From Prevotella illustrans (lineage in GTDB: Bacteria; Bacteroidota; Bacteroidia; Bacteroidales; Bacteroidaceae), in contig NZ_JAERMS010000002.1 in the NCBI RefSeq assembly GCF_017426725.1, forward strand, positions 1 to 64,000: a stretch of DNA of 64,000 nt, given 5' to 3'. The first letter of the stretch is position 1, and the number at the start of each line of letters is the position of its first letter. The translations under genes and the position numbers were made by a program. Positions 13,413-53,080 of the stretch are shown in pieces. The notes under the pieces are model-generated. The model was not told where the DNA came from, made no database searches, and saw only the letters and a program-made list of their open reading frames with translations.

Positions 13413-13456
13413 TATTTATCATGTCTGGAGTTAGACATTATTGACAAAGTTATTAC

Positions 13457-14650
13457 ATGCAACATATTTTTCATTTGCTGCTTATATTATTGGCATCTAC
13501 GATTATATCCTGTTCCGGGCAAAAAAAGGAGGAATTGACTCCTTGGGGAACAAGTATTAACGGAGATACCATCTTACCTCAGGCAGATGCGCTCTCAATA
13601 TCTGAAATACAAAATAACGGTGAATTGATCATGCTGACCATGTCGGGGCCCAAGACTTACTATGATTATCATGGGAAAAATCTTGGTCTCCATTATCTGT
13701 TGTGTGAACAGTTCGCTCAAAAGATAGGTGTCTCCTTGAGGGTAGAAGTCTGTAAAGATACAATGGAAATGATCAGGCGACTGACTGATGGTGAAGCTGA
13801 CATCATAGCTTATCCGCTGCCTTCAAGTTTCGCTAAAGAAGTTAGGTTGTGTGGTGTCAGCACCGACTCCTTGAAATACAAATGGGGGGTTAATAAAGAT
13901 AATGAGGAATTAGCGGAAAAACTCAACCAATGGTTTCAGCCCCAAATGGTAAAGCAAATAGAACAAGAAGAAAATTTTCTGTTGTCTGCAAGAAGTGTTG
14001 TCAGGCATGTTTATTCGCCCATGCTCAACAGGGCCAAGGGAACTATATCGCTCTATGATCAATATTTCATGCAGTATGCCCCTTTGGCACGCTGGGACTG
14101 GCGTCTGATGGCCGCACAATGTTACCAGGAATCAACCTTCGACCCCAAAGCGCATTCATGGGCGGGTGCCCGTGGTCTTATGCAGATTATGCCGGAGACC
14201 GCCAAACACTTAGGTCTGCCCATGGGAAATATCTTTGATCCGGAAAGCAATATTGCGGCATCGGCCAAATATCTGGCCGAGCTTAATCAGCATTTCAAAG
14301 ATGTACAACATCCTATTGAAAAGTGTAAATATGTGCTTGCCAGCTATAACGGAGGGGCATTTCATATCCGTGACGCGATGGCGCTTGCCCGCAAGTATGG
14401 CAAAAATCCATACCGATGGGCCGATGTAGCCGAATATGTATTAAAATTACGATCACCGCAGTTCTATAATGATCCCATCGTAAAACACGGTTATATGCGA
14501 GGTAACGAGACTGTTGAGTACGTAGATCGTATCATGGTCCGTTGGGAGCAATATCGAGGTGTAGCCCATCCCGGTTCATTCAAATTCGGAAATCAAGTAC
14601 CCCATAAGGCTTCTCATCGTAACAGATTCAATATTGGTTTTAAAGACTGA
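13457..14650 (+). CDS. mltF: MltF-like membrane-bound lytic transglycosylase, lipoprotein, 397 aa
   Basis: It cleaves peptidoglycan between MurNAc and GlcNAc, forming 1,6-anhydro ends, from the periplasmic face. A lipoprotein signal peptide ends at the cysteine at residue 19 (ASTIISCSG). Residues about 50-165 form a solute-binding-protein type 3 domain, the regulatory half of MltF. Residues about 205-340 form the SLT catalytic domain: the catalytic glutamate is E225 in QCYQESTF, followed by GARGLMQIMPETA, ASAKYLAEL and the CKYVLASYNGGAFHI motif. It is 29 bases upstream of tamL, so the two envelope genes are probably cotranscribed. Confidence 0.92.
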   Translation: MQHIFHLLLILLASTIISCSGQKKEELTPWGTSINGDTILPQADALSISEIQNNGELIMLTMSGPKTYYDYHGKNLGLHYLLCEQFAQKIGVSLRVEVCKDTMEMIRRLTDGEADIIAYPLPSSFAKEVRLCGVSTDSLKYKWGVNKDNEELAEKLNQWFQPQMVKQIEQEENFLLSARSVVRHVYSPMLNRAKGTISLYDQYFMQYAPLARWDWRLMAAQCYQESTFDPKAHSWAGARGLMQIMPETAKHLGLPMGNIFDPESNIAASAKYLAELNQHFKDVQHPIEKCKYVLASYNGGAFHIRDAMALARKYGKNPYRWADVAEYVLKLRSPQFYNDPIVKHGYMRGNETVEYVDRIMVRWEQYRGVAHPGSFKFGNQVPHKASHRNRFNIGFKD

Positions 14651-14679
14651 TTCACTAAGCTGATTATACTTTATTCAAC

Positions 14680-16911
14680 ATGCGTAATTCTTTCAGACTC
14701 TTCATATTTCTTGTATTGGCAGCAGCCGTGACTTCATGTTCTGTCAGTAACAGCATTCCTGGCGGGCAGTTGCTATTACACAAAGTCATGATTCAATCGG
14801 ACAGAAAGGATGTAAATCCATCCAAGTTTAAAGCGTATATTCGTCAACAACCTAATTCTAAATGGCTTTCATTATTCAGAGTACCTCTTGTCGCCCCGGA
14901 AGACACCCTGAACCACGCAACGAAATGGTCCAAATGGCTTCTGAATAAAATAGGAGAGAAGCCCGTGTTGTTCGATTCAACTCAAACCAGACTTACCTCG
15001 AATGACTTTTTACAAATATTGTCTAACATGGGTTATCTGAAAGCCGAAGTAGAAGTGAAACTCAGGCAACACAAAAAAAAGATGGATGTCACCTATTTGC
15101 TTCATCCGGGAGACCCTTATTTCATTGATTCTGTAGCTTATGATATCCGAGACACTGCTATAGCGAATCTGCTGGCCGAAGTTTCGACGCGCTCATCGAC
15201 CGGAGGCGGCACTTTACACACGCAAAACCTGCGGGGCAAACAGTTTTCTGTAGAAGGACTGGACAACGAACGTAATCAGATTACCGCCTACCTTCTTTCA
15301 ACAGGATATTATAAGTTTCATAAAGATTTCATCGCGTTTGATGCGGATTCTTCTGCGAAACCAAACTCGGTATTCCTTAGGATGAAGATACTTCCGTTTC
15401 ATGGAGAAAATGGAAAGGCGATTAACCGGCATCCCTGTTACAGCATAAAGGAAATTAATTACGCTAACATAGATAAATCTCCGATACCCTTGCGTCAAAA
15501 GGTCTTGCAGAATAGTACCCTCATCTCTATAAACAAGCCATTTGATAACGAAGATCTGCAAAAGACATATAGTAAGTTTGCCAAGCTCGGGGCTGTGCGG
15601 TACGCAAATATAACTTTTCGTGAACATCCGGATACTACGTTGCTTGACTGCAATATCCTTCTCCAAATGAATAAAAAGCATTTGCTTTCTTTGCAACCGG
15701 AAGGAACGAATACAGCCGGCGATCTTGGCGCGGCTATGACGCTGGCCTATGAAAATCTGAATCTGTTTAGAGGATCCGAACATCTTACGCTCCAATTTCG
15801 GGGAGCTTATGAAGCGATCAAGGGACTGGAAGGTTACCAGAACCATAAGTACGAAGAATATGGGGTAGAGGCTAATCTGCAGATTCCACGATTTCTGTCA
15901 CCGTTTTTGTCAAAGTCTTTCAAGCGCAGAAGTAACGCGACAAGTGAAATCACACTGAGCTACAATCTGCAAAACAGGCCGGAGTTTCATAGACGCTATT
16001 TTACGACCTCATGGCGTTATCGCTGGTCGGAGCCGCATCACCATATCAGATACAGATTTGATCTGGTAGATCTCAGCTATATTTATATGCCGTGGATCAG
16101 CTCGACTTTCAAGCATGACTATCTTGACAGTGTCAGTAACCGTAACGCAATCCTACGCTACAACTACGAGAATCTGCTCATCATGAAAGTCGGATTCGGC
16201 GTTGCCTATAATAATGGAACGGACGCGATTAAAGGAAATATTGAGACCGCAGGCAATCTGCTGCAGTTGTCATCGCCACTCTTCCGATTTGGCAGCGATA
16301 ATCAGGGGCGCCACATTATCTTTAATACGGCCTATGCCCAATATCTGAAATTAGATCTTGACTATACCAGATTGTTTTTCTTCGATAAACGAAACAATTT
16401 GGCCATACACCTTGGCTTGGGAGTAGCTTGGCCTTACGGTAACAGCAAAGTCCTGCCATTTGAAAAACGTTATTTTGCAGGAGGTCCGAATAGTGTTCGC
16501 GGCTGGAGTGTTCGCGAACTGGGGCCGGGAGGATTCAAAGGAAAAGACCGCAGGATAGATTTTATCAACCAAACAGGCGACATGAAATTAGATGTTAATT
16601 TGGAATATCGCACTTGGCTGTTCTGGAAGTTTGATGGCGCGCTGTTTGTGGATGCAGGTAACATCTGGACGCTCCGAAATTATGCGGATCAGCCTGATGG
16701 TCAGTTCAAACTCGACACATTTTACAAGCAAATTGCCCTGTCGTATGGTTTGGGACTCAGATTAAATTTCAGCTATTTCATTTTGCGATTTGACGCAGGC
16801 ATGAAAGCCATAAACCCGGCATACGACTCGACGAGAAAACATTACGCGATTCTTCATCCTGACTTCAAGCGCGATTTTACTTTCCACTTTGCCGTAGGTC
16901 TTCCATTCTAA
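14680..16911 (+). CDS. tamL: TamL: lipoprotein-type TamA/Omp85 outer membrane assembly protein, 743 aa
   Basis: TamL is the Bacteroidota lipidated relative of TamA, which works with TamB in outer membrane biogenesis. The signal peptide ends at a lipobox cysteine at residue 20 (AAAVTSCSVSNSIPGGQLLL). Three POTRA-like domains occupy about residues 25-330 (for example NDFLQILSNMGYLKAEVEV). The remainder is a 16-strand barrel of the Omp85 superfamily, including the lid-loop signature AGGPNSVRGWSVRELGPG near residue 610 and a terminal aromatic residue (VGLPF). tamB is not in this window. It converges on the YycJ-like gene with 11 bases between stops. Confidence 0.9.
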   Translation: MRNSFRLFIFLVLAAAVTSCSVSNSIPGGQLLLHKVMIQSDRKDVNPSKFKAYIRQQPNSKWLSLFRVPLVAPEDTLNHATKWSKWLLNKIGEKPVLFDSTQTRLTSNDFLQILSNMGYLKAEVEVKLRQHKKKMDVTYLLHPGDPYFIDSVAYDIRDTAIANLLAEVSTRSSTGGGTLHTQNLRGKQFSVEGLDNERNQITAYLLSTGYYKFHKDFIAFDADSSAKPNSVFLRMKILPFHGENGKAINRHPCYSIKEINYANIDKSPIPLRQKVLQNSTLISINKPFDNEDLQKTYSKFAKLGAVRYANITFREHPDTTLLDCNILLQMNKKHLLSLQPEGTNTAGDLGAAMTLAYENLNLFRGSEHLTLQFRGAYEAIKGLEGYQNHKYEEYGVEANLQIPRFLSPFLSKSFKRRSNATSEITLSYNLQNRPEFHRRYFTTSWRYRWSEPHHHIRYRFDLVDLSYIYMPWISSTFKHDYLDSVSNRNAILRYNYENLLIMKVGFGVAYNNGTDAIKGNIETAGNLLQLSSPLFRFGSDNQGRHIIFNTAYAQYLKLDLDYTRLFFFDKRNNLAIHLGLGVAWPYGNSKVLPFEKRYFAGGPNSVRGWSVRELGPGGFKGKDRRIDFINQTGDMKLDVNLEYRTWLFWKFDGALFVDAGNIWTLRNYADQPDGQFKLDTFYKQIALSYGLGLRLNFSYFILRFDAGMKAINPAYDSTRKHYAILHPDFKRDFTFHFAVGLPF

Positions 16912-42525: not shown

Positions 42526-42556
42526 TTGATAATGATGTTAAATGGCCTTAACTTTG
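42526..42556 (+). promoter_or_regulatory. Full promoter of the TonB receptor cassette
   Basis: TTG (42526-42528), 20 bases, TAACTTTG (42549-42556). The receptor ATG at 42600 is 43 bases downstream. It is the only strong promoter visible for the cassette. Confidence 0.7.
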
Positions 42557-42599
42557 TTTCATAAATACATTGTCTTTAGATGCGCATATCCTTTATCTG

Positions 42600-45395
42600 A
42601 TGGATTTAAGATACATTTTTACCGTTTTGTTTTGTTGGGGTTCGCTGAACTGTGTAGGACAGAAATACGTCAATGTGAGTGGTGTTGTGACTGATGTCGC
42701 GGATAAAAGCACGCTTGCCGCGGCCACCGTTTCTTTTCAAGGCAAGCATTCAAGAGCCACGCTGGCCAATGCCAACGGGCGTTTCTCCATTGATGTGGTG
42801 GCCGGCGAAAGCTACGTGATGAAAGTGAGCTATGTAGGGTATGAACCTTATAGGCGCACGGTGACTTTTACCAAAAGCACGATCTTGAACGTGGGGCTGA
42901 AGGCCAACCTCCGTCTCAGTGAGGTGACGGTCACGGCCAAAGAGGCCCAAGGGCTCGTCACCAAGTCAGTTATCGGGCGGGACGCGATGAACCAGCTACA
43001 GCCCAACAGTCTGGCCGACCTTATGGAGTTGCTGCCGGGAGGTTATTCCAAAGACCCGAACATGGGCGTGGCCAACACGATAGCCTTGCGCGAAACGGGA
43101 AGCCTGACTGCCGGAGGGGCCTTGTCGCATAACAATGCCTTTGCCATATCGTCGCTCGGCACGCAGTTTGTCGTGGACGGCACACCCATCAATACCGATG
43201 CCAACCTGCAATTCTCTCCGCTTTCCGACACGCAACACATCACTTCGGGGGGTGGGGCGGAAAATTATCGCAACATCACCAACAAGGGCGTGGACATGCG
43301 TACGATAGGCACCGACGACATTGAGCGCGTGGAGGTGATACGGGGAATACCCTCGGCGGAATATGGAAACCTGACCAGCGGTATCGTAAACATCAAGAAG
43401 ATACGCCGGAAGATACCGCTCTCGGCTCGTTTTAAAGCCGACGGCTACAGTAAGTTGTTCTCCCTGGGGAAAGGCATCGCCATCGGGAATGGTGACAGGC
43501 GGGTGCTCAATGTAGACCTCGGTTATCTGGATTCGAAGGTAGACCCTACCGACAATCTCGAAAACTACAAGCGGTTGAATGCTTCGCTGCGCTACACATT
43601 CAGGAAGACGACGGCGGGACAAGCGGAATGGAAGTGGGAGTCGGCACTCGATTATTCCGGCTCTTTCGACAACAGTAAGGCTGACCCCGATCTCAACTAC
43701 GGGCGCATCGACGAATACCGATCCAACTACAATCGTATGGTCTTCACCAACAGCTGGTCGCTGAAGCGCGAAAAGGGGCTGCTCCGCGAGATAGAAGTCA
43801 ACAGCTCCGTGGCGCAGCAGCTGGACCGTCTGCGTGAGAGACGTCTCGTGGCCCCGCAACGCTATGGCATCGTGCCCACGGGATGGGAGGAAGGAGAACG
43901 TGAGGCCGCTGCCGTCTATGCCGAATATGTGGCCGATTATCTGTGCGACGGCAAACCCTTCAACGCCTGGCTTAAAGCCAAGGGACTGCTCCGGTTGGAT
44001 GTAGGTAAGGTGGAAAACCGCCTGAAGGTGGGCCTCAACTGGGACTTTTCCAAGAACTACGGCGACGGACAGGTGTACGACATGAGCCATCCGCTCAGTG
44101 TGAACGGCTGGTCGGCCAGGCCGCGGCGCTATAAGGATATTCCCGGACTGCAAAATCTGTCGGCCTTTGGCGAAGAAAACTTCATGGCGAAGATTGGGGG
44201 TAGCGTGCTGGAAGGCATGTTCGGAGTGAGGCTGAACACCATGCCGGGACTTGACAAGCGTTTTGAAATGAGCGGAAAGGTGTATGCCGACCCGCGCGTC
44301 AACCTCAACTGGCGGTTGCCCTATCTCACGGTCGGGGGTAGTCCGCTACGCCTTGCGCTCGCCTCGGGATGGGGGCTGACGACAAAAAATCCCACACTTA
44401 ACTATCTCTATCCTGACAACTACTACAGCGACTTCGTAGAACTGGCCTACTACGACACCCAGAATCCCGAGCGCGACAGCCGCTTTGTGGTGATGAGCTA
44501 CCGACAGGATCCTACGAATTATGCCATCAAGCCGGCCCGTAATCGGAAATGGGAGGTGCGATTGGATGTAGACTGGAAGGAGAACTCGCTGAGCGTGGAC
44601 TATTTTTATGAGCAAATGACCTCGGGCTTCAGATACTCCCGCATCTACGGTGACTATCTATACAAGAAATATGACGCCACGCAGATGTCCGCCGCAACGG
44701 ACTGGCGCACGCTGCCTTTTGAGAATAGACACGTGCTCGACGGCTATCAGCAGGCATCGAACGGCAGCAAGATGGTGAAACAGGGCGTCGAACTGCAATT
44801 CACTTCCGCTCGCGTCCGCGCCCTGCGCACCCGCTTCAATGTCAGTGGAGCATGGTTTCACACCACCTACACCAACAGCCAGCCGATGTTCGACCCCGTG
44901 AGCACCGTGATAGACAACCGCCCCGTGAGCGAGTCATACGTAGGACTCTACGACTGGAACGACGGGAGGGTGAACGATCGGGTGAACACCAACTTTACGC
45001 TCGATACCCAAGTGCCCGAATGGGGATTCATCTTCACCACGTCGGTGCAGTGCATGTGGCTCATCAAGACGAAGCGGCAGGAGAAGAGCGGCTACCCCAT
45101 AGCCTACATTTCGGCGGCCGACGGTAAGGTGCACCCATACACTTCGGAGAGCGAGCAGAATGTCTTCCTGAAGCAGTTGGTGCAGACCTATAAGGAAGAT
45201 ATGTTCCGCCCGTTCACGGTGCCGATGTCGATGATCGTCAACCTCAAGGCTACCAAGCGCATCGGGCGCTACATGCGTTTGTCTTTCTTTGCCAATAAGA
45301 TATTGGATTACCTGCCCGATTATAAGTCTAACGGTAAGGTGATACGCCGTAACGCTTCGCCTTATTTCGGGGTGGAGGCCAATCTTACGATATAA
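42600..45395 (+). CDS. TonB-dependent outer membrane receptor with carboxypeptidase-like N-domain, 931 aa
   Basis: An active outer-membrane importer driven by TonB. The start is placed at MDLRYIFTVLFCWGSLNCVG (42600), giving a signal peptide; an upstream TTG at 42570 is less likely. Residues about 25-105 form a CarboxypepD_reg-like domain (VSGVVTDVADKSTLAAATVS, YVGYEPY). The plug domain follows (VVDGTPINTDANLQ, DDIERVEVIRGIPSAEYGN near residue 245, LTSGIVNIKK), then a 22-strand barrel ending in SPYFGVEANLTI. There is no neighbouring SusD gene, so it is not a glycan-utilisation pair. GC is clearly above the window average (hand-counted lines 53-58%). It leads the five-gene cassette. Confidence 0.93.
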   Translation: MDLRYIFTVLFCWGSLNCVGQKYVNVSGVVTDVADKSTLAAATVSFQGKHSRATLANANGRFSIDVVAGESYVMKVSYVGYEPYRRTVTFTKSTILNVGLKANLRLSEVTVTAKEAQGLVTKSVIGRDAMNQLQPNSLADLMELLPGGYSKDPNMGVANTIALRETGSLTAGGALSHNNAFAISSLGTQFVVDGTPINTDANLQFSPLSDTQHITSGGGAENYRNITNKGVDMRTIGTDDIERVEVIRGIPSAEYGNLTSGIVNIKKIRRKIPLSARFKADGYSKLFSLGKGIAIGNGDRRVLNVDLGYLDSKVDPTDNLENYKRLNASLRYTFRKTTAGQAEWKWESALDYSGSFDNSKADPDLNYGRIDEYRSNYNRMVFTNSWSLKREKGLLREIEVNSSVAQQLDRLRERRLVAPQRYGIVPTGWEEGEREAAAVYAEYVADYLCDGKPFNAWLKAKGLLRLDVGKVENRLKVGLNWDFSKNYGDGQVYDMSHPLSVNGWSARPRRYKDIPGLQNLSAFGEENFMAKIGGSVLEGMFGVRLNTMPGLDKRFEMSGKVYADPRVNLNWRLPYLTVGGSPLRLALASGWGLTTKNPTLNYLYPDNYYSDFVELAYYDTQNPERDSRFVVMSYRQDPTNYAIKPARNRKWEVRLDVDWKENSLSVDYFYEQMTSGFRYSRIYGDYLYKKYDATQMSAATDWRTLPFENRHVLDGYQQASNGSKMVKQGVELQFTSARVRALRTRFNVSGAWFHTTYTNSQPMFDPVSTVIDNRPVSESYVGLYDWNDGRVNDRVNTNFTLDTQVPEWGFIFTTSVQCMWLIKTKRQEKSGYPIAYISAADGKVHPYTSESEQNVFLKQLVQTYKEDMFRPFTVPMSMIVNLKATKRIGRYMRLSFFANKILDYLPDYKSNGKVIRRNASPYFGVEANLTI

Positions 45396-45429
45396 ACACA
45401 ACCTGCTAATGACTGAAAGGAATAAGAAT

Positions 45430-46728
45430 ATGAAAAACGTTATATATACTTTGGCGCTGGTCATGCTTGCCCTGCTGTCGTCGTGTACCGAAGACAAGAC
45501 GCTTGCGGAGGTTTCCCCAAGTCTCATGATAGATTATCCCACGAACGTGAAAAACCTCAAGGTGGTTTCGGAGAAGATCGAATTCACCAACCTTACGTCG
45601 GGCGAGAAGACGAGTGTGGCCCGTTCCGGCAACATTCGGTTGCCGGAAGGACTTTACGACTGTGTGTATTCGGCCGATGTGACCTACGATAACGGTGACG
45701 GAACAGAGGTCGCCACGGCGAAAGGACACCTCACCGGAAAGGCTGAAAACATCACCCTCACGGGAGCGTCGGAAAGTCTTCGGATAGAGACTTTCCTCTC
45801 GGCGGCAAACGAAGACTTCATCTTCGAGGAGATATTCTTTGCCGGCACGTTGCGCGCTTCGGGGTCGCAATATTATGGCGACGGGTACATCAAGATATTC
45901 AATAACACCGACCATGTGCTCTATGCCGATGGCCTGGCCTTCTGTGAGTCGAAGTTTAAGTCGGTGCAATATTTTGAATACTCGCCCGACATTCGCAAAG
46001 ACACGTTCACGGTGTGGTCTGTTTACGTGATTCCCGGTAATGGAACGGAACATCCGGTTATGCCTGGTAAGTCGCTGCTCATCTGCGACACGGGCATCGA
46101 CCATCGGGTGGCCAATCCCAATTCATTCGATTTGAGCAAGGCCGACTTTGAGTGGTATGACATTTCCACATCCCCCTCTCATTTGGATATAGACAGTCCC
46201 ACGGTGCCCAATCTGGACAAGTGGTATTGCTACACGTTGAGTTTCTATGTCCTGCACAACAGAGGCTTCACGTCGTTTGCCCTCGCCCGCATCCCGAAAA
46301 ACGTCACTAAGGAGCAGTATCTCAAAGACTATCTGTACACCTATTATTATACGATGTATCTTCCGCAAGGCACTTTCCCCATGCAACAGACGGCTTATAA
46401 GATTCCCAATGCGTGGATTGTGGACGGGGTGAATTGTAGTGTGCAGAGCAGCCGGCTGTGGAACATCCTCCCGCCGTCGGTGGATGCGGGGTGGACACAC
46501 GTCGGGCATGTGGACCACGACAAGACTCGCTACTTCAAAAGCATCCGCCGCAAGTTGCAGTTTATAGACGGCAAAGGTGTCATACACCTACAAGACACCA
46601 ACAATTCCACCGAAGATTTCAACACAGAGTGCATTCCCTCGGTGATAGAGGAGCAGGGCACGGCCATCAGTGCGGACGGCACGAAGGCTTCGACACATAC
46701 CTACGATGGCGTGACTCCGAAGAAGTAA
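45430..46728 (+). CDS. DUF4876 lipoprotein, 432 aa
   Basis: A Bacteroidota lipoprotein family (DUF4876) usually found beside TonB-dependent receptors; function unknown. The start MKNVIYTLALVMLALLSSCT (45430) gives a lipobox cysteine at residue 19; an ATG at 45409 adds seven residues. An N-terminal Ig-like domain (about 30-125; PEGLYDCVYSADVTYDNGDG) is followed by a lamin-tail-like domain (FEEIFFAGTLRASG-QYYGDGYIKIFNNTD near residue 140) and a long beta-rich end. It lies 34 bases after the receptor stop. By analogy with HmuY or SusD it could be the surface substrate-capturing partner (inference). Confidence 0.85.
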   Translation: MKNVIYTLALVMLALLSSCTEDKTLAEVSPSLMIDYPTNVKNLKVVSEKIEFTNLTSGEKTSVARSGNIRLPEGLYDCVYSADVTYDNGDGTEVATAKGHLTGKAENITLTGASESLRIETFLSAANEDFIFEEIFFAGTLRASGSQYYGDGYIKIFNNTDHVLYADGLAFCESKFKSVQYFEYSPDIRKDTFTVWSVYVIPGNGTEHPVMPGKSLLICDTGIDHRVANPNSFDLSKADFEWYDISTSPSHLDIDSPTVPNLDKWYCYTLSFYVLHNRGFTSFALARIPKNVTKEQYLKDYLYTYYYTMYLPQGTFPMQQTAYKIPNAWIVDGVNCSVQSSRLWNILPPSVDAGWTHVGHVDHDKTRYFKSIRRKLQFIDGKGVIHLQDTNNSTEDFNTECIPSVIEEQGTAISADGTKASTHTYDGVTPKK

Positions 46729-46747
46729 ACGACTAAAAACAAAAAAT

Positions 46748-48283
46748 GTGGATAAGAAGACAGTTCAATTTCTGATAGCGGTTTCGCTTGTTTCCTTTGG
46801 CTGCGTGGCATCGGCAAAGGCTACCGACGATGTGGTGGAACGACAGGTGGAGCACCGGAGCGACACTCGTTCATGGTTTCCGGATATCTATCTCAATCCT
46901 GCCATGCAATGGAATCGTTACCGGTATTCGCTGAATCGCTTGAGCGCGACCTACACCGACAGCCGAGCCACCCTTCCGCAACAGCTGGAATATGGTGATA
47001 AGGTAGCGGCCGCAGGGGGCGATATAGACGCTTTTCTGCGAAAAAAGATGATTTCCCTGTGGGGAACAGCCCACTACGCCAATGGCAAGACCCACCACAT
47101 ACGCTACAACGAAACCACCGATTTCGACCTCCTTTACCCCTATGTCATGGCCGATACCATCGGGGGAGGGGGCTCGCGAAAGGAGACTTACGACTTCATG
47201 GGAGGATTTGCCTATCACAAGAACAGATGGACGGTCGGCGTGGAAGGTCGCTATACGGCCCGGTTGGAATATCGGACGGTGGATCCCCGCCCCAAAAATC
47301 TCACGGGTTATTTGAAAGTGAAGGCGGGAATGGCCTATTCCGGACTGTTCAATGGGACTTATGAAGGCGGGCTGTCGGCAGGTTTCCGACGATACAAGCA
47401 GACGAATACGCTTGAGTTTTATAACGAAACATCGCGACCGGTCGTCTATCAGCTTACCGGACTGGGCATGGATTATTACCGTTTCAGGGGTTCCTACACT
47501 TCCACTTACTATAAAGGGCTGGGGTGGGAGGCCACCATGGAACTACGTCCTGTGATCCCTCGAAATGGCGTATATGTCTCGTTGAGCTACAGTTCTCTAT
47601 CGATAGAGAAAATCATTTCCGACCTCAACGAATTGCCTTTGACGAAGTTGGAATTACGACATCAGGGCTTTGAAGCCGGCTATATGCACAAAGGACAAAC
47701 CTGCACGTGGGGTGTGAGGCTGGCGGAGACCTACGACGGGCGTCGGGGAATAGAAAACATCTTCGGTTCGGCACAAGATAACATCTATCCGCAGATTGCT
47801 TCCGGCCGGCAGTATCAAGAGACCCGATGGAAGCTCTCGGGCGCTCTGTTATGCCAATATCGCCCGTCGGGCATGGCTGTATATGACCTTTCGTTGAGCC
47901 AACACTACCGTCACATCCGCGAAACCTATGCCGAACCGTGGCGGAAGATGGCCTCTTCGGCACAGGTCTCGGCTCTCTCGCTGAAAGGAATGTGGCGGAT
48001 GAAGCAGTGGCTTTTACAAACTTCCGCACATCTGGACTACATTTGGAACAGCCGTTGCAACATGGTGCTGAACGGAAGTGTCAATGAGAATATGATGGTG
48101 CCCGTGTACCATCGTTACGCTTTCTATGGTAACAACCGTTATGATGCCGGTTTACGGGCCGAAGCCAACTATGCCGTGAAACGCGACTACTGCGTGTTTG
48201 TTGTCGCTAATTGGGACTACGCGCACTACATGAAGACAGAACACAACAGCCTCCTGCGCCTCTCATTGGGCCTGGAATTCTGA
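46748..48283 (+). CDS. DUF6850-type outer membrane beta-barrel protein, 511 aa
   Basis: An outer-membrane protein of the DUF6850 family. The start is GTG at 46748; an overlapping ATG at 46746 in another frame stops after nine codons. A signal peptide (VQFLIAVSLVSFGCVASAKA) precedes many amphipathic strands with aromatic girdle residues, such as YKGLGWEATMELRP and GVYVSLSYSSL, ending in SLLRLSLGLEF with a terminal phenylalanine typical of BAM-assembled barrels. It sits 19 bases after the DUF4876 gene. GC is high like its neighbours. Function unknown; perhaps a second channel or a structural partner of the receptor. Confidence 0.82.
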   Translation: MDKKTVQFLIAVSLVSFGCVASAKATDDVVERQVEHRSDTRSWFPDIYLNPAMQWNRYRYSLNRLSATYTDSRATLPQQLEYGDKVAAAGGDIDAFLRKKMISLWGTAHYANGKTHHIRYNETTDFDLLYPYVMADTIGGGGSRKETYDFMGGFAYHKNRWTVGVEGRYTARLEYRTVDPRPKNLTGYLKVKAGMAYSGLFNGTYEGGLSAGFRRYKQTNTLEFYNETSRPVVYQLTGLGMDYYRFRGSYTSTYYKGLGWEATMELRPVIPRNGVYVSLSYSSLSIEKIISDLNELPLTKLELRHQGFEAGYMHKGQTCTWGVRLAETYDGRRGIENIFGSAQDNIYPQIASGRQYQETRWKLSGALLCQYRPSGMAVYDLSLSQHYRHIRETYAEPWRKMASSAQVSALSLKGMWRMKQWLLQTSAHLDYIWNSRCNMVLNGSVNENMMVPVYHRYAFYGNNRYDAGLRAEANYAVKRDYCVFVVANWDYAHYMKTEHNSLLRLSLGLEF

Positions 48284-48325
48284 TTTTAATTTTAAATAAA
48301 TATTCAATTAAAAACTCTAAAGACT

Positions 48326-50104
48326 ATGATGAAAAAATTACTCCTATTGTTTGTAATGTTAACAATCGTGGCTGCTGTCCACGCTGCGGACATCAAGTAT
48401 CAGTGGCACCACACTATTTATGGAAAGACCAAAGCCGGAAACACGCCTGTTTCCATCATCAAGACTACTGATGGTAACTATGTGGCATTTGCCTCTTTCG
48501 GTTCTAACACTCTTACCGGAACCAATGTTTATTTCGACGGGGAACCGTTTAAAGACGCTGAAGGCAAAGCCATTGAGGGATGCCCGTATGCGGGAAATAA
48601 TGACAATGCGGTAAATCATAATCTCTTGTTGCAGAAATACAATCAGCAGACTGGGGAAGTACTTTGGACGGTGTACTCGGATAAAGGTTATCTGTACAAT
48701 AATCAAGCCATTTATCCGACATCAGACGGAGGACTGATTATGATTTCCGATGTGCGCAATCTCGCCAACAAGACAGAAACTACGCTTTTCCGAATGGTCG
48801 GGGCTGACAACAAAAAGACCGAAGTGAGCTACACACCGGCCGGAAACGAAAAGACCTCCACCGTTGAAGGTGTCATCGCCAAGATAGATAAAGACGGGAA
48901 AGTGAAATGGGCAAAGTTGATAGCCACCACCACTCATCCTACCATCGAAGGCAAGGATTACGGTGGATACGCTGCTTATTATCGCGGAGTAGTGGTGGAT
49001 AGTAAAGAAAATATTTATGTCTGTGGTAATTACATGTCTTCTATGACATTTATCAAACGTGATGGGACAGAGGAAACTCATGAGGCAAAGAATACGGCAG
49101 CTTGGGATGGAACCATACAGACCTCTGCCGGCGACCCATTTATTGCCAAACTCGACAAGGATGGCTATCTACTCCAGTTCATGACAGAAGACGAGAGTAG
49201 CATCAAGTTTGCTTCGTTTGATAAGATGGTCATTAAAAACGATATTATCTATGTAAGTGGACGGATCGTGGGAGACGGTACATCTACCATCAAGTTTGGT
49301 GATATTACTTTGAAACCTAATAACTGCTGGAGTATTTATTATGCGTCTTTAAACTGTAACAATTTGAGCATCAATTATATGAAGTCATTCGTGACAGGGA
49401 AATTCAACGGGAAAAACCAAGGGATACAAAATAAAAATCTACAGTATTGTAACGGGAGTCTTTATATCACAGGATTGCTAATAGGAAGCATGGCAGATGA
49501 TGAAGCTTCATCCCCTTTTATCGCAACAACGGATAGATGGTATGAAGCAATGGTTGTGAAAGTGGATGCCCAAAATGGTAAACGTCTTGCCGCAGGCACA
49601 GATGGGAAAGGTATTAGTGGAGCATTTGCCGTTGTCGAAACAAAAGATCCGTCTTCTATATGGCTTTATGGGTATGCTTTGTCGGGAATGTCTAGACTTA
49701 ATAAATATACACTTGAAGGTGATAAATTGGTAAAGGGAACCGAACAGGTGGCACTTAATGAAGCTTCAATTGGTATGGTGTGTGACCCATTGGTAGATGG
49801 TACTGGAATCATCACTATGGGAAGGACACGTAATAACTCTGGTAAAGTTTGGGGAACCTCTGCTGAACCTACAGAATTCTTTAATTGGGGGCTTGTTCTC
49901 TGTAAACATACCTGCGAAGATTTTCTTCCAGCCACGCCTACCGCCATCGATGGTATTATCATGCAAAAAGTTAAGGCAACTGACTATAATGTTTATTCGC
50001 TTGCCGGTATGCTTATTAAGAAAGCCAAGAGTTTGAAGGAGGCTATTAGCGGTTTGCCTTCCGGACTTTACATCATCGGTGGTAAGAAGATTATCGTGAA
50101 GTAA
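48326..50104 (+). CDS. Secreted beta-rich protein with T9SS-like C-terminal tail, 592 aa
   Basis: No specific family recognised. The signal peptide MMKKLLLLFVMLTIVAAVHA is clear (start 48326 or 48329). The body has repeated SBBP/propeller-like strands: TTDGNYVAFASFGS, YPTSDGGLIMISDVRN, VIAKIDKDGKVKWAKLI, VVDSKENIYVCGNY, PFIAKLDKDGYLLQF. The final about 40 residues (YNVYSLAGMLIKKAKSLKEA and then LPSGLYIIGGKKIIVK) match the type IX secretion C-terminal sorting-domain pattern. GC is lower here (hand-counted lines 37-45%) than in the genes on either side. It is the likely exported or surface-attached member of the cassette. Role unknown. Confidence 0.8.
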   Translation: MMKKLLLLFVMLTIVAAVHAADIKYQWHHTIYGKTKAGNTPVSIIKTTDGNYVAFASFGSNTLTGTNVYFDGEPFKDAEGKAIEGCPYAGNNDNAVNHNLLLQKYNQQTGEVLWTVYSDKGYLYNNQAIYPTSDGGLIMISDVRNLANKTETTLFRMVGADNKKTEVSYTPAGNEKTSTVEGVIAKIDKDGKVKWAKLIATTTHPTIEGKDYGGYAAYYRGVVVDSKENIYVCGNYMSSMTFIKRDGTEETHEAKNTAAWDGTIQTSAGDPFIAKLDKDGYLLQFMTEDESSIKFASFDKMVIKNDIIYVSGRIVGDGTSTIKFGDITLKPNNCWSIYYASLNCNNLSINYMKSFVTGKFNGKNQGIQNKNLQYCNGSLYITGLLIGSMADDEASSPFIATTDRWYEAMVVKVDAQNGKRLAAGTDGKGISGAFAVVETKDPSSIWLYGYALSGMSRLNKYTLEGDKLVKGTEQVALNEASIGMVCDPLVDGTGIITMGRTRNNSGKVWGTSAEPTEFFNWGLVLCKHTCEDFLPATPTAIDGIIMQKVKATDYNVYSLAGMLIKKAKSLKEAISGLPSGLYIIGGKKIIVK

Positions 50105-50125
50105 AAACAATGTGATTAATTTTTT

Positions 50126-50173
50126 GCAAGTCTGGCAGAGGCTGTTTTTCCATCGTCTTCTGCCGGACTTCGC
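50126..50173 (+). other. Intercistronic hairpin before the M16 gene
   Basis: GCAAGTCTGGCAGAG (50126-50140) pairs with 50157-50173, with one bulged base and one G-U pair, around a loop of about 16 bases. It ends 21 bases before the M16 ATG. There is no T-tract after it, so processing or mRNA stability is more likely than termination. Confidence 0.65.
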
Positions 50174-50194
50174 AATTTGAAATATCCTCTCTAC

Positions 50195-53017
50195 ATGAAG
50201 AAAAACTATTTTTGGCTGCTGTTCCTGTTTCCGTTTGTGGCTTCCGCCCAACCATTGGAACAGGACGCTTCCTTTCTTACGGGCACACTGAAGAACGGGC
50301 TGACCTACTATATCCGCCACAACGCCAAGGAGCCGGGCATTGCCGACTTCTACATCGCCCAGCGGGTGGGTTCTATTCTCGAAGAACCCCGGCAGCGTGG
50401 ATTGGCCCACTTTCTGGAACACATGGCTTTCAACGGCACAACAAACTTCCGGGGCGAAGGCAAATCGCCGGGCATAGTGCCGTGGTGTGAGAGCGTTGGG
50501 GTGAAGTTCGGGGCCAATCTCAATGCCTATACGAGCGTAGACCAAACGGTGTACAATATCTCGGCCGTGCCTGTGAAGCGTGAAGCCGTGCTCGACTCGG
50601 CCCTGCTCATCCTGCACGACTGGAGCCACGACCTGCTGCTCGCCGACAAGGAGATAGACAAGGAGCGCGGGGTGATACACGAGGAGTGGCGCACGCGCCG
50701 TGCCGGAAAGGCCACACAGCGCATGATGGAGCGGGTGCTGCCGGTGGTCTATCGGGGCACGAAATATGAAGACTGCCTGCCCATCGGCTCGATGGACATC
50801 GTAGATCATTTCCTCTACCAAGACCTGCGCGACTATTACAAGAAATGGTATCGCCCGGACTTGCAGGCCGTCATCGTAGTGGGTGACATCAAGCCGGCCG
50901 AGGTGGAGGCGAAGATCAAGCGTCTGTTCGGTGCTATTCCCCGGCCCAAGCGTGTCGCGGAGCGCATCTATTATCCTGTGACCGACAACGATCGGATGAT
51001 AGTGGCCACCGACCGCGACAGCGAGCAGCCCATCATGCTGGCCAACCTCTACATGAAGCACGATGTTGTGCCCGACGGGAAGAAGACCGACGTTGGCTAT
51101 CTGCGGGACAGTTACATCGAGTCGCTCATCACCTCGATGCTCAACGCCCGTTTGCAGGAACTGCAACAACAGGCTGTTCCGCCCTTCCTCTCGGCTACGG
51201 CTCATGCCGGTCGTTTTCTCGTTTCGCGCACCAAGGATGCTTTCTGGCTTTCTTTCGGCTGTAGGCAGGAGAACGTGAAAGGCTCGTTTGATGCTGTGAT
51301 AGGGGAGAGCGAGCGTGCCCGCCGCTATGGCTTCACCGCGAGCGAACTGCAGCGTGCGCAAGACAGACAGCTGAAGGTGGCCGAGCGTCAATATGCCGAG
51401 CGCGACGATCGGCGCAACCGCTACTTCGTGAATAAGGCTTTGCAGCATTTCCTCTCGGCCGAACCGGTGGTCACGGAGGCTTTTCAGCTTGAACTGATCA
51501 GGGAATTCAACCGTACCGTCACACCGGAGCAGGTGAACAGGGTGGCGAAAGAGCTGATTTCAGACAAGAATCAGGTGCTCGTTGTCTATGCGCCGGACAA
51601 ACCTGAGTTTAAACTGCCGCCGAACGACACGCTTGAGCAGTATGTGCTCGACGCGCAGGCGAAGGCTTATAAGCCTTACAACGAACCGGAACTTGCCGGC
51701 GAACTCATCTCTCGGCTGCCCAAACCGGGAAAAATCATCGGCGAACGAGTAGGCTTGCACGGAACAAAAGTACTGGAACTGAGCAACGGCACCACCGTCT
51801 ACGTCAAGCGAACCGATTTCAGCAAAGACCAGATAGCCATGCGCCTGTGGGGCGAGGGTGGCACTTCGCGCTATCCCGACAGCGATGCGCTCAACTTCCC
51901 GTTTGTCGCAAGTGCCATTACTAATGCCGGTGTGGGGAATTTCGACAAGAACACGTTACGCAAGATGCTCTCGTCGAAGATAGCCGGAGTGACTCCTTCT
52001 CTTAACGACGACACGCAGCAACTCTCCGGAAAGTCGTCGATCAAAGACCTGAAGACGATGCTAGAACTTACCTATCTTTACTTCGCACAGCCCCGACGCG
52101 ACACCGTTGCCTTCAATGGAGAAATAGACCGCATGCGCTCTTTCCTGACCAACAGGGAGGCCAACCCGCAGGTGAGCTACAACGATTCGCTGGTGTCGGT
52201 ACTCTATGGCAACCATCCGCGCATGCAGCCTACCAAGCGAGAGACGCTCGACCGTGTATCCTACGACCGCGTGTGGCAGATATACCGGGAGAGTTTTGCC
52301 GATGCTTCCAAGTTCAAGATGCTGCTGGTGGGCAACATCGACATCGACTCCTTGCGACCTTTGCTTTGCCAATATATCGCCACACTGCCGTCGAGCAAGA
52401 ATCATACGGCGGCGGCCGAACCGGTGGGCGGAAAGAAATATCCTACTCCCAACGTGCGCAAGGCCGACGAGACGCATCTTTTCAGAAAACCGATGAATAC
52501 GCCCTCAGCGCTGGTTAATATCTTCTACACCTTTGAGGAACCTTACACGCCCAAGAGCGACCTTGCCTTAGACGTGCTGCAACGGGTGTTGCAAATGGCT
52601 TATACTGACAGTGTGCGCGAGGAGAAAGGCGGCACGTATGGGGTGAGTGTAGACTATGCGCTCGAGAAAGACAACCATCCCACAGCCATGTTACGCATAT
52701 CCTTCCGCACCGATCCCGCCAAGTACGAGGCACTGATACCGATCGTCTACAGGCAGGTGGCGCACATCGCCAACCGGGGACCTAACCCCATAAGCATGGA
52801 CAAGGTGAAGAAATATCTGTTGAAAACATACGGACAGAACGTTATAGATAACGGCTATTGGGATTATGTTATCTATCATCAGCTACAAGACGGCATCGAT
52901 TTCCACACCGGCTACGAACAACTGGTACGCAACCTCACGGCCGGAGATGTGCAGCAGATGGCGAAAGACCTTCTCGGCAGCCGTCGGCGCATCGAAGTGA
53001 CGATGCTGAGTGAATAG
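50195..53017 (+). CDS. Exported M16 (pitrilysin-type) zinc metallopeptidase, 940 aa
   Basis: A clamshell zinc peptidase expected in the periplasm. The start MKKNYFWLLFLFPFVASAQP (50195) gives a cleavable signal peptide. The zinc motif HFLEH is at residues 72-76 and E153 is 77 residues after H76, exactly the spacing in pitrilysin and insulysin. A second, inactive M16 domain pair fills the C-terminal half (after about residue 500; RKMLSSKIAGVTPSLNDDTQ). Size and layout match PqqL/FusC, the periplasmic M16 peptidases that process substrates brought in by TonB receptors. GC is very high (a counted line 67%). It ends the cassette. Confidence 0.93.
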   Translation: MKKNYFWLLFLFPFVASAQPLEQDASFLTGTLKNGLTYYIRHNAKEPGIADFYIAQRVGSILEEPRQRGLAHFLEHMAFNGTTNFRGEGKSPGIVPWCESVGVKFGANLNAYTSVDQTVYNISAVPVKREAVLDSALLILHDWSHDLLLADKEIDKERGVIHEEWRTRRAGKATQRMMERVLPVVYRGTKYEDCLPIGSMDIVDHFLYQDLRDYYKKWYRPDLQAVIVVGDIKPAEVEAKIKRLFGAIPRPKRVAERIYYPVTDNDRMIVATDRDSEQPIMLANLYMKHDVVPDGKKTDVGYLRDSYIESLITSMLNARLQELQQQAVPPFLSATAHAGRFLVSRTKDAFWLSFGCRQENVKGSFDAVIGESERARRYGFTASELQRAQDRQLKVAERQYAERDDRRNRYFVNKALQHFLSAEPVVTEAFQLELIREFNRTVTPEQVNRVAKELISDKNQVLVVYAPDKPEFKLPPNDTLEQYVLDAQAKAYKPYNEPELAGELISRLPKPGKIIGERVGLHGTKVLELSNGTTVYVKRTDFSKDQIAMRLWGEGGTSRYPDSDALNFPFVASAITNAGVGNFDKNTLRKMLSSKIAGVTPSLNDDTQQLSGKSSIKDLKTMLELTYLYFAQPRRDTVAFNGEIDRMRSFLTNREANPQVSYNDSLVSVLYGNHPRMQPTKRETLDRVSYDRVWQIYRESFADASKFKMLLVGNIDIDSLRPLLCQYIATLPSSKNHTAAAEPVGGKKYPTPNVRKADETHLFRKPMNTPSALVNIFYTFEEPYTPKSDLALDVLQRVLQMAYTDSVREEKGGTYGVSVDYALEKDNHPTAMLRISFRTDPAKYEALIPIVYRQVAHIANRGPNPISMDKVKKYLLKTYGQNVIDNGYWDYVIYHQLQDGIDFHTGYEQLVRNLTAGDVQQMAKDLLGSRRRIEVTMLSE

Positions 53018-53037
53018 TCTAAGACTCTATGTATTAA

Positions 53038-53080
53038 AAAGGCTCGGTATGCAAATATTCACACCGAGCCTTTATTTTTT
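53038..53080 (+). terminator. Bidirectional terminator between the cassette and the permease gene
   Basis: AAAGGCTCGGT (53038-53048) pairs perfectly with ACCGAGCCTTT (53063-53073), followed by TTTTTT at 53075-53080 on the plus strand. On the minus strand it is followed by TTTTTAAT, so it may also terminate the permease transcript. Confidence 0.85.

Follow-up and report, generated by a model that had tools for sequence, protein, structure and literature searches.

We propose that five adjacent genes of Prevotella illustrans form a peptidase-coupled TonB import module for iron or haem borne by a protein or a large peptide, a reading to which we give a probability of roughly 0.55. The genes lie in a window of 64,000 nucleotides, the whole stretch of DNA analysed, in which positions 42526-53080 hold one promoter-like site, five same-strand genes and one strong terminator. 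In order, the genes encode a TonB-dependent receptor, a DUF4876 lipoprotein, a DUF6850 barrel, a tail-tagged protein and an M16 peptidase (Table 1). The model is based on this gene content, on conserved linkage, on the recurrence of the order in the genome G063 and on a C25-like/HEAT family that occupies the same place in sister modules.

Table 1. Coordinates of the cassette and its flanking signals in the window.
Feature	Position	Strand	Basis
Promoter-like TTG-N20-TAACTTTG	42526..42556	+	Ahead of receptor gene; sequence and motif count
TonB-dependent receptor, N-terminal CarboxypepD_reg	42603..45395	+	Pfam PF13715 (CarbopepD_reg_2), PF07715 (Plug)
DUF4876 lipoprotein	45409..46728	+	PF16215, 2e-70
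DUF6850 outer-membrane beta-barrel, GTG start	46748..48283	+	PF21012, 2.6e-91
Secreted tail-tagged protein	48326..50104	+	T9SS-like C-terminal tail by eye; weak SBBP signal
Exported M16 metallopeptidase, HFLEH	50195..53017 (from ATG)	+	PF00675, PF05193 (M16 and M16_C)
Intrinsic terminator	53038..53080	+	11-bp stem 53038-53048/53063-53073, T run to 53080

The intergenic gaps from gene 1 to gene 5 are 13, 19, 42 and 90 nt. The promoter-like motif, which follows a Bacteroidota-type consensus, occurs 14 times on the two strands of the window versus 3.7 times in simulated sequence, and its expectation in 600 bp of one strand is 0.018. The terminator is absent from the list of the terminator scanner, probably because its 14-nt loop exceeds the 3-8 nt allowed. 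Open reading frames, Pfam matches, the motif count and the stem with its T run together bear out the description in the earlier note of five same-strand genes between a promoter and a terminator; the export signals of the encoded proteins were read by eye. The open frame of the receptor begins at TTG 42570, and an in-frame TTG at 50177 opens that of the M16 peptidase. The SusD/RagB lipoprotein expected of SusCD-type glycan uptake was not found by Pfam among the five genes. The genome (3.09 Mb in 138 contigs) has three genes of each of the families DUF4876 and DUF6850, which pair up at three loci. The back ends of these loci are the M16 peptidase and tail protein in the window, a C25-like/HEAT protein on contig C51 and an upstream HMA protein on contig C9.

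The receptor shares 38-42% identity with receptors of M16 loci of the type I layout described below and 22-29% with most others. The DUF4876 lipoprotein is probably surface-exposed, and its lipobox residue Cys26 is nearly invariant. Its predicted structure (pLDDT 64.8, weaker than that of DUF6850) matches the solved structure of BT_1938 (4q1z) with a Foldseek value of 7.6e-21 and a VIA Z of 23.4 over 345 aligned residues (rmsd 16.0). The DUF6850 model (pLDDT 76.5) has 18 predicted strands and resembles porin-like proteins, the best at Z 18.0 over 285 aligned residues (rmsd 5.4), and its profile gave a single match in the PDB (E 0.085). Assigning a function to DUF6850 from its fold was ruled out because the matches scatter over a wide range of porins and further barrel proteins (CymA, PorB, OccK; Z 15-18).

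In the M16 peptidase, HFLEH occupies residues 72-76 in ATG numbering and is invariant in 11 aligned sequences, and E153 (E159 counted from the TTG) is invariant in the aligned M16s. Both positions agree with the earlier note, but going by the usual M16 patterns the metal ligand is probably not E153 and rather a Glu of ERGVIHEE, a few residues further on. A profile search of the PDB placed 9ldy, an M16 chain, first (934 bits) and PqqL second (341 bits, 1.1e-100), followed by 6b03, which we take to be FusC, at 2.7e-44 together with its kin.

The M16 subfamily of the window is tied to DUF4876, DUF6850 and receptor genes throughout the genus. In 200 same-genus genomes, 70 M16 matches were found at E <= 1e-205, and 55 of these lay within 9 kb of DUF6850. 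Of the 55, 29 were downstream of it in the same orientation, 25 were divergent and one was upstream. The remaining 15 comprised six that were linked otherwise (G041 beside DUF4876; G030, G055, G147 and G153 at a contig edge next to a receptor; G035 split between contigs), one undecidable case on a cut contig (G176) and eight unlinked matches. M16s that are 55-58% identical yet, on the contig seen, are separate from the module occur in G065, G091, G071, G115 and G096, as does one of 52% identity at locus L110, and all six of these genomes carry DUF6850 elsewhere; M16s of 40-44% identity away from the module occur in G180, G159 and G078. Among the first 60 of the 200 genomes, matches of at least 45% identity were present in 19, where the M16 sits beside DUF4876 and/or DUF6850, beside a receptor only (contig edge, G030 and G055) or is split (G035), and the ubiquitous M16s of lower identity lie away from the module. 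The further 140 genomes gave 41 of 52 matches within 9 kb of DUF6850. At the level of whole genomes, DUF6850 over the cut-off was found in 62 of 68 genomes with an M16 match versus 36 of 132 without one (Fisher p 4e-19, genomes counted as independent of kinship).

A tree of 108 M16 rows agrees with these counts. One clade of 28 rows (SH-aLRT 100 by a quick method) contains 27 module-linked rows and the unlinked L110, all 80 rows outside it are unlinked, and the linkage label changes twice on the tree versus 24 times in shuffles. Fragmentary M16s (G038 and the C74 piece of G035) were left out, one genome is represented twice (L069/L106), rows L056-L067 were scored unlinked from coordinates, and L082 and the receptor-only loci of G030 and G055 were scored linked. 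The M16 of the same-genus genome G026 is identical to that of L106 (Prevotella sp.). A scan of GTDB genomes gave at least 80 named M16 loci; among those listed, ten fall in the clade of the window (L104-L111, L116 and L121; 43-60% identity), and nine of the ten have the module, L110 being the exception. The DUF4876 of L105 was located by tblastn. The 42-44% identical M16s of Bacteroides, Mediterranea and allies (L112-L115, L117 and L118) fall outside the clade and have no module. The tree and the 55 of 70 matches near DUF6850 rule out chance linkage. Rare adjacency of the M16 gene to the receptor genes in relatives would have made the coupling coincidental; the search of other genomes for co-occurrence, proposed in the earlier note and run here, found it to be regularly adjacent, with the six otherwise linked matches in addition to the 55.

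Modules with an M16 gene occur in two layouts. Type I has the receptor, a small lipoprotein, DUF6850, DUF4876 and M16 on the same strand; type II is divergent or has the M16 gene last, and its receptor is followed by DUF4876 and DUF6850, in many cases after a small lipoprotein and a small tailed protein. DUF6850 matches over the cut-off were typed, leaving out three weak ones (<30 bits) and those below the cut-off. The exact five-gene order of the window recurs in a second species, G063 (locus L203), where the tail protein shows about 30% identity along the greater part of its sequence.

The tail protein matched no Pfam family over threshold and gave no Por_Secre_tail match; its similarity to the beta-propeller family SBBP (PF06739) is under the cut-off at E 0.014, and a sequence search of the PDB returned ribosomal-protein matches only (E 0.017 and 0.046). 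SprA of the T9SS is present in the genome (2620 bits). Matches to the tail protein were found in four of 200 same-genus genomes, in three over most of its length and in one over the last 62 residues only, which match a 1223-aa open frame on contig C41 of G033. A one-off insertion was first suggested because of the low GC of the gene (about 40-45% versus 51-59% around it). This explanation is countered by homologues in the module loci of G167 and G063 and in five of 40 order-level loci, and the same recurrence favours the original idea of a surface protein added to the import system. At locus L202 of G167 (contig C68, 6984-10222), DUF6850 and one of two copies of the tail protein are each split across two frames.

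A peptidase-like family unrelated to M16 takes the same place in some sister modules. In the C51 module of the genome studied here, a 732-aa C25-like/HEAT protein (L007:14234-16432) lies directly behind DUF6850. Eleven matches to this family, representing ten genes of which one is split over two frames, were found in seven of 200 same-genus genomes, and every one either starts 16-126 nt behind DUF6850 or follows, in tandem, a copy that does. The motifs HHHG and DAC are invariant in six aligned sequences. The C25 assignment is weak: besides HEAT repeats, Pfam places Peptidase_C25 just over the cut-off in L099 (3.4e-6) and L091 (4e-5), the copy in the genome studied here matches HEAT_2 only, and a profile search of the PDB returned HEAT-type proteins only and no gingipain. 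In L096, L099 and L224 the C25-like gene is followed by a papain-like gene, recognised from motifs by eye, and by an HmuY-like lipoprotein, whose HmuY domain is found by Pfam in L099 (8e-12) and L224 (9e-13). The papain-like protein of L099 gave no Pfam peptidase match. The iron-responsive locus BT1933-39 is reported, in the excerpted text of PMC10434189, to encode a HEAT-repeat protein besides DUF4876 and a receptor, and this protein may belong to the same family.

Across the order, DUF6850 was detected at E <= 0.001 in 51 of 247 genomes, 43 of them over the cut-off. From 56 over-cut-off matches outside the genome studied here we picked 40 regions in 36 genomes, mainly well-placed ones. A C25-like, papain-like or M16 gene lies within 3 kb of the core in 11 of these 40 loci, an ABC/PepSY/DUF4857-type set is present in 19, and ten have neither. 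PF16357 and PF16149 were confirmed in the ABC/PepSY-type set of L217. Peptidase and ABC/PepSY set never occur together (0/40; Fisher p 1.9e-4, loci counted as independent of kinship). With such a peptidase gene absent from 29 of 40 loci, the core does not need one. An M16 from outside the clade of the window, on a long branch, directly adjoins DUF6850 in three of the 40 loci, so that there may have been more than one recruitment of M16. M16-like proteins in L222, L223, L240 and L252 (scores 53, 28, 23 and 51) were excluded as low. S46 genes, whose background frequency is unmeasured, were kept out of the peptidase count; they lie within 3 kb of the core in three of 40 loci, all without another peptidase or an ABC/PepSY set. 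S46-like genes near DUF4876 modules were seen in L222, L233, L236, L243 and L251, with Pfam confirmation in L222 only.

The cassette resembles the Fus (FusA/FusC) and YddB/PqqL systems in placing a TonB receptor beside an exported two-half M16 peptidase with HxxEH, its signal peptide being read by eye. Those systems belong to Proteobacteria, whereas the cassette is from Bacteroidota and adds a DUF4876 lipoprotein, a DUF6850 barrel and a tail protein; unlike Fus, it has no FusB- or FusD-like gene by Pfam among the five genes and three neighbours. The parallel drawn at the outset with FusC and PqqL stands for the peptidase, with PqqL as the second-best PDB match, and may or may not extend to the receptor. 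In a single-sequence phmmer search with E up to 1, the sole match of the receptor was a SusC-homologue domain (E 0.0025), in a PDB set that may or may not include FusA and YddB chains, and it matched no TonB-receptor chain beyond that domain. The best reading, by analogy, is that the cassette would work like Fus and PqqL, with homology based on the receptor, or membership of the Fus family, only conjectural. In the excerpted text of PMC6793856, the Fus system is described as importing an entire protein by way of a TonB receptor and digesting it in the periplasm, and Proteobacteria have related clusters; purified PqqL, the nearest characterised relative, is reported there to cleave neither ferredoxin nor a panel of iron proteins. 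PQQ import was considered and rejected; the main text of the PqqU paper mentions neither PqqL nor M16.

Within Bacteroidota, the cassette shares with the iron-stimulon loci PG1019-22, BT1938-39 and BT3625-33 a DUF4876 gene next to a TonB receptor, and with BT_1938 a common fold. According to excerpts of PMC10434189, low iron raises PG1019-22 by 20.8- to 214.5-fold and BT3625-33 by 36.7- to 128-fold, and BT3625-33, unlike the window, carries an ABC/PepSY/DUF4857 set. The main text of that paper does not mention M16 or insulinase. One DUF4876 gene shifts with hemin supply together with HmuY (LFC -5.42 and -6.11) in the published account as excerpted. XusABC of B. thetaiotaomicron is likewise an iron-regulated receptor with a surface lipoprotein, but in the portion of the literature consulted its lipoprotein is DUF4374, its third gene is PepSY and BT2063-65 includes no peptidase. 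Among open-licence PMC papers we found three that name DUF4876, none that names DUF6850 and none in which DUF4876 or DUF6850 is coupled to a peptidase, and the view that this exact set of five genes is undescribed is compatible with that literature. In P. gingivalis, haem acquisition employs gingipain plus HmuY. Similarly, HmuY-domain proteins accompany C25-like and papain-like proteins in some sister modules, although the C25-like proteins differ from gingipains in carrying HEAT repeats, in lacking a T9SS tail by eye and in their weak C25 kinship; the module of the window has M16 and no HmuY.

In the model that we favour, the DUF4876 lipoprotein on the cell surface, together with the putatively T9SS-secreted tail protein, would capture a protein or a large peptide that bears iron or haem. 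The TonB receptor would then move this cargo, or a large fragment of it, across the outer membrane; the 18-strand DUF6850 barrel would be a constant partner that may serve for docking or as a second pore. The M16 peptidase would digest the carrier in the periplasm and so free the metal or haem. Import of a protein or peptide followed by digestion is suggested because the M16 in relatives usually sits with the same partners; the link of the model to iron and hemin would draw on the published responsiveness of DUF4876 and receptor genes, as excerpted, and digestion on the precedent of FusC and PqqL.

M16 enzymes degrade peptides, and the cassette might instead import haem or a small metal chelate that includes a peptide portion, no whole protein entering and the M16 only clearing peptide fragments or co-imported peptides. 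In 19 of the 40 order-level loci the same core has an ABC/PepSY set and lacks a peptidase, and a Foldseek search with DUF6850 gives the siderophore receptor XusA as a distant match (rank 25), along with many barrels. We consider this account unlikely; a second exported peptidase-like family in the C25-like/HEAT proteins, if active, exceeds what clearance of peptides needs. It is still harder to see the M16 as a peptidase with general housekeeping duties in the periplasm, its gene simply carried along with the operon. Most genomes do have one or more other M16s of about 34-40% identity, and the six of 52-58% identity away from the module would suit such a role, but the linked M16s form a clade apart from the ubiquitous ones and the linkage is maintained through two layouts, with 29 genes downstream and 25 divergent.

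The metal is a further point on which the readings differ. HMA proteins were found among ORF calls in six of 18 regions with a non-M16 module and in three of 41 with the M16 set, a six-frame search adds L076 to these regions, and the protein of L092 matches PF00403 at 8.4e-32, all of which would suit a module that handles copper or another metal in place of iron or haem. Against this, published induction, as excerpted, is by iron limitation, a DUF4876 gene responds to hemin with HmuY, and HmuY (haem) domains lie beside sister modules; we regard a different metal as very improbable.

Beyond the peptidase-coupled import module itself, we tentatively suggest a broader view, which is possible but somewhat less than even in our judgement. 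The TonB receptor, DUF4876 and DUF6850 may constitute a general import chassis of Bacteroidota whose back end can be exchanged: one class would pass its cargo to an ABC/PepSY set, and the other would digest it with a dedicated peptidase recruited on more than one occasion from unrelated families (M16, C25-like/HEAT and perhaps papain-like with HmuY), and the window may represent a second, independently evolved lineage of outer-membrane protein import for iron or haem. If the cassette is indeed a peptidase-coupled import module, protease-associated protein import would extend to gut, rumen and oral Bacteroidales, members of a dominant gut phylum, two DUF families would gain a function, and strongly iron-responsive genes of unknown role would be explained. 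Prevotella disiens JCM 6334 is a cultured member with the M16 module.

Several further genes were seen beside these modules. FMN_bind proteins adjoin the M16 in L069, L078, L080, L085 and L121; counted by genome, FMN_bind lies beside M16 in five of 28 genomes of the clade of the window or its close kin (19 from the genus set and nine named, one genome counted once) and in none of 70 other M16 loci, with a profile built from those same loci, which favours them. A longer FMN_bind membrane protein is additionally present in L078 and L085, with Fer4_5 confirmed in L078, and in L095 an FMN_bind protein accompanies a module that lacks M16. Near M16, FMN_bind proteins would fit reductive iron release. 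Exported HMA-domain (CxxC) proteins lie beside non-M16 DUF4876 modules in L008 (8543-8947), L089, L092, L094, L095 and L102. In a single case, L105, an M43-type lipoprotein metalloprotease is encoded just downstream of the M16 gene (13424-14773).
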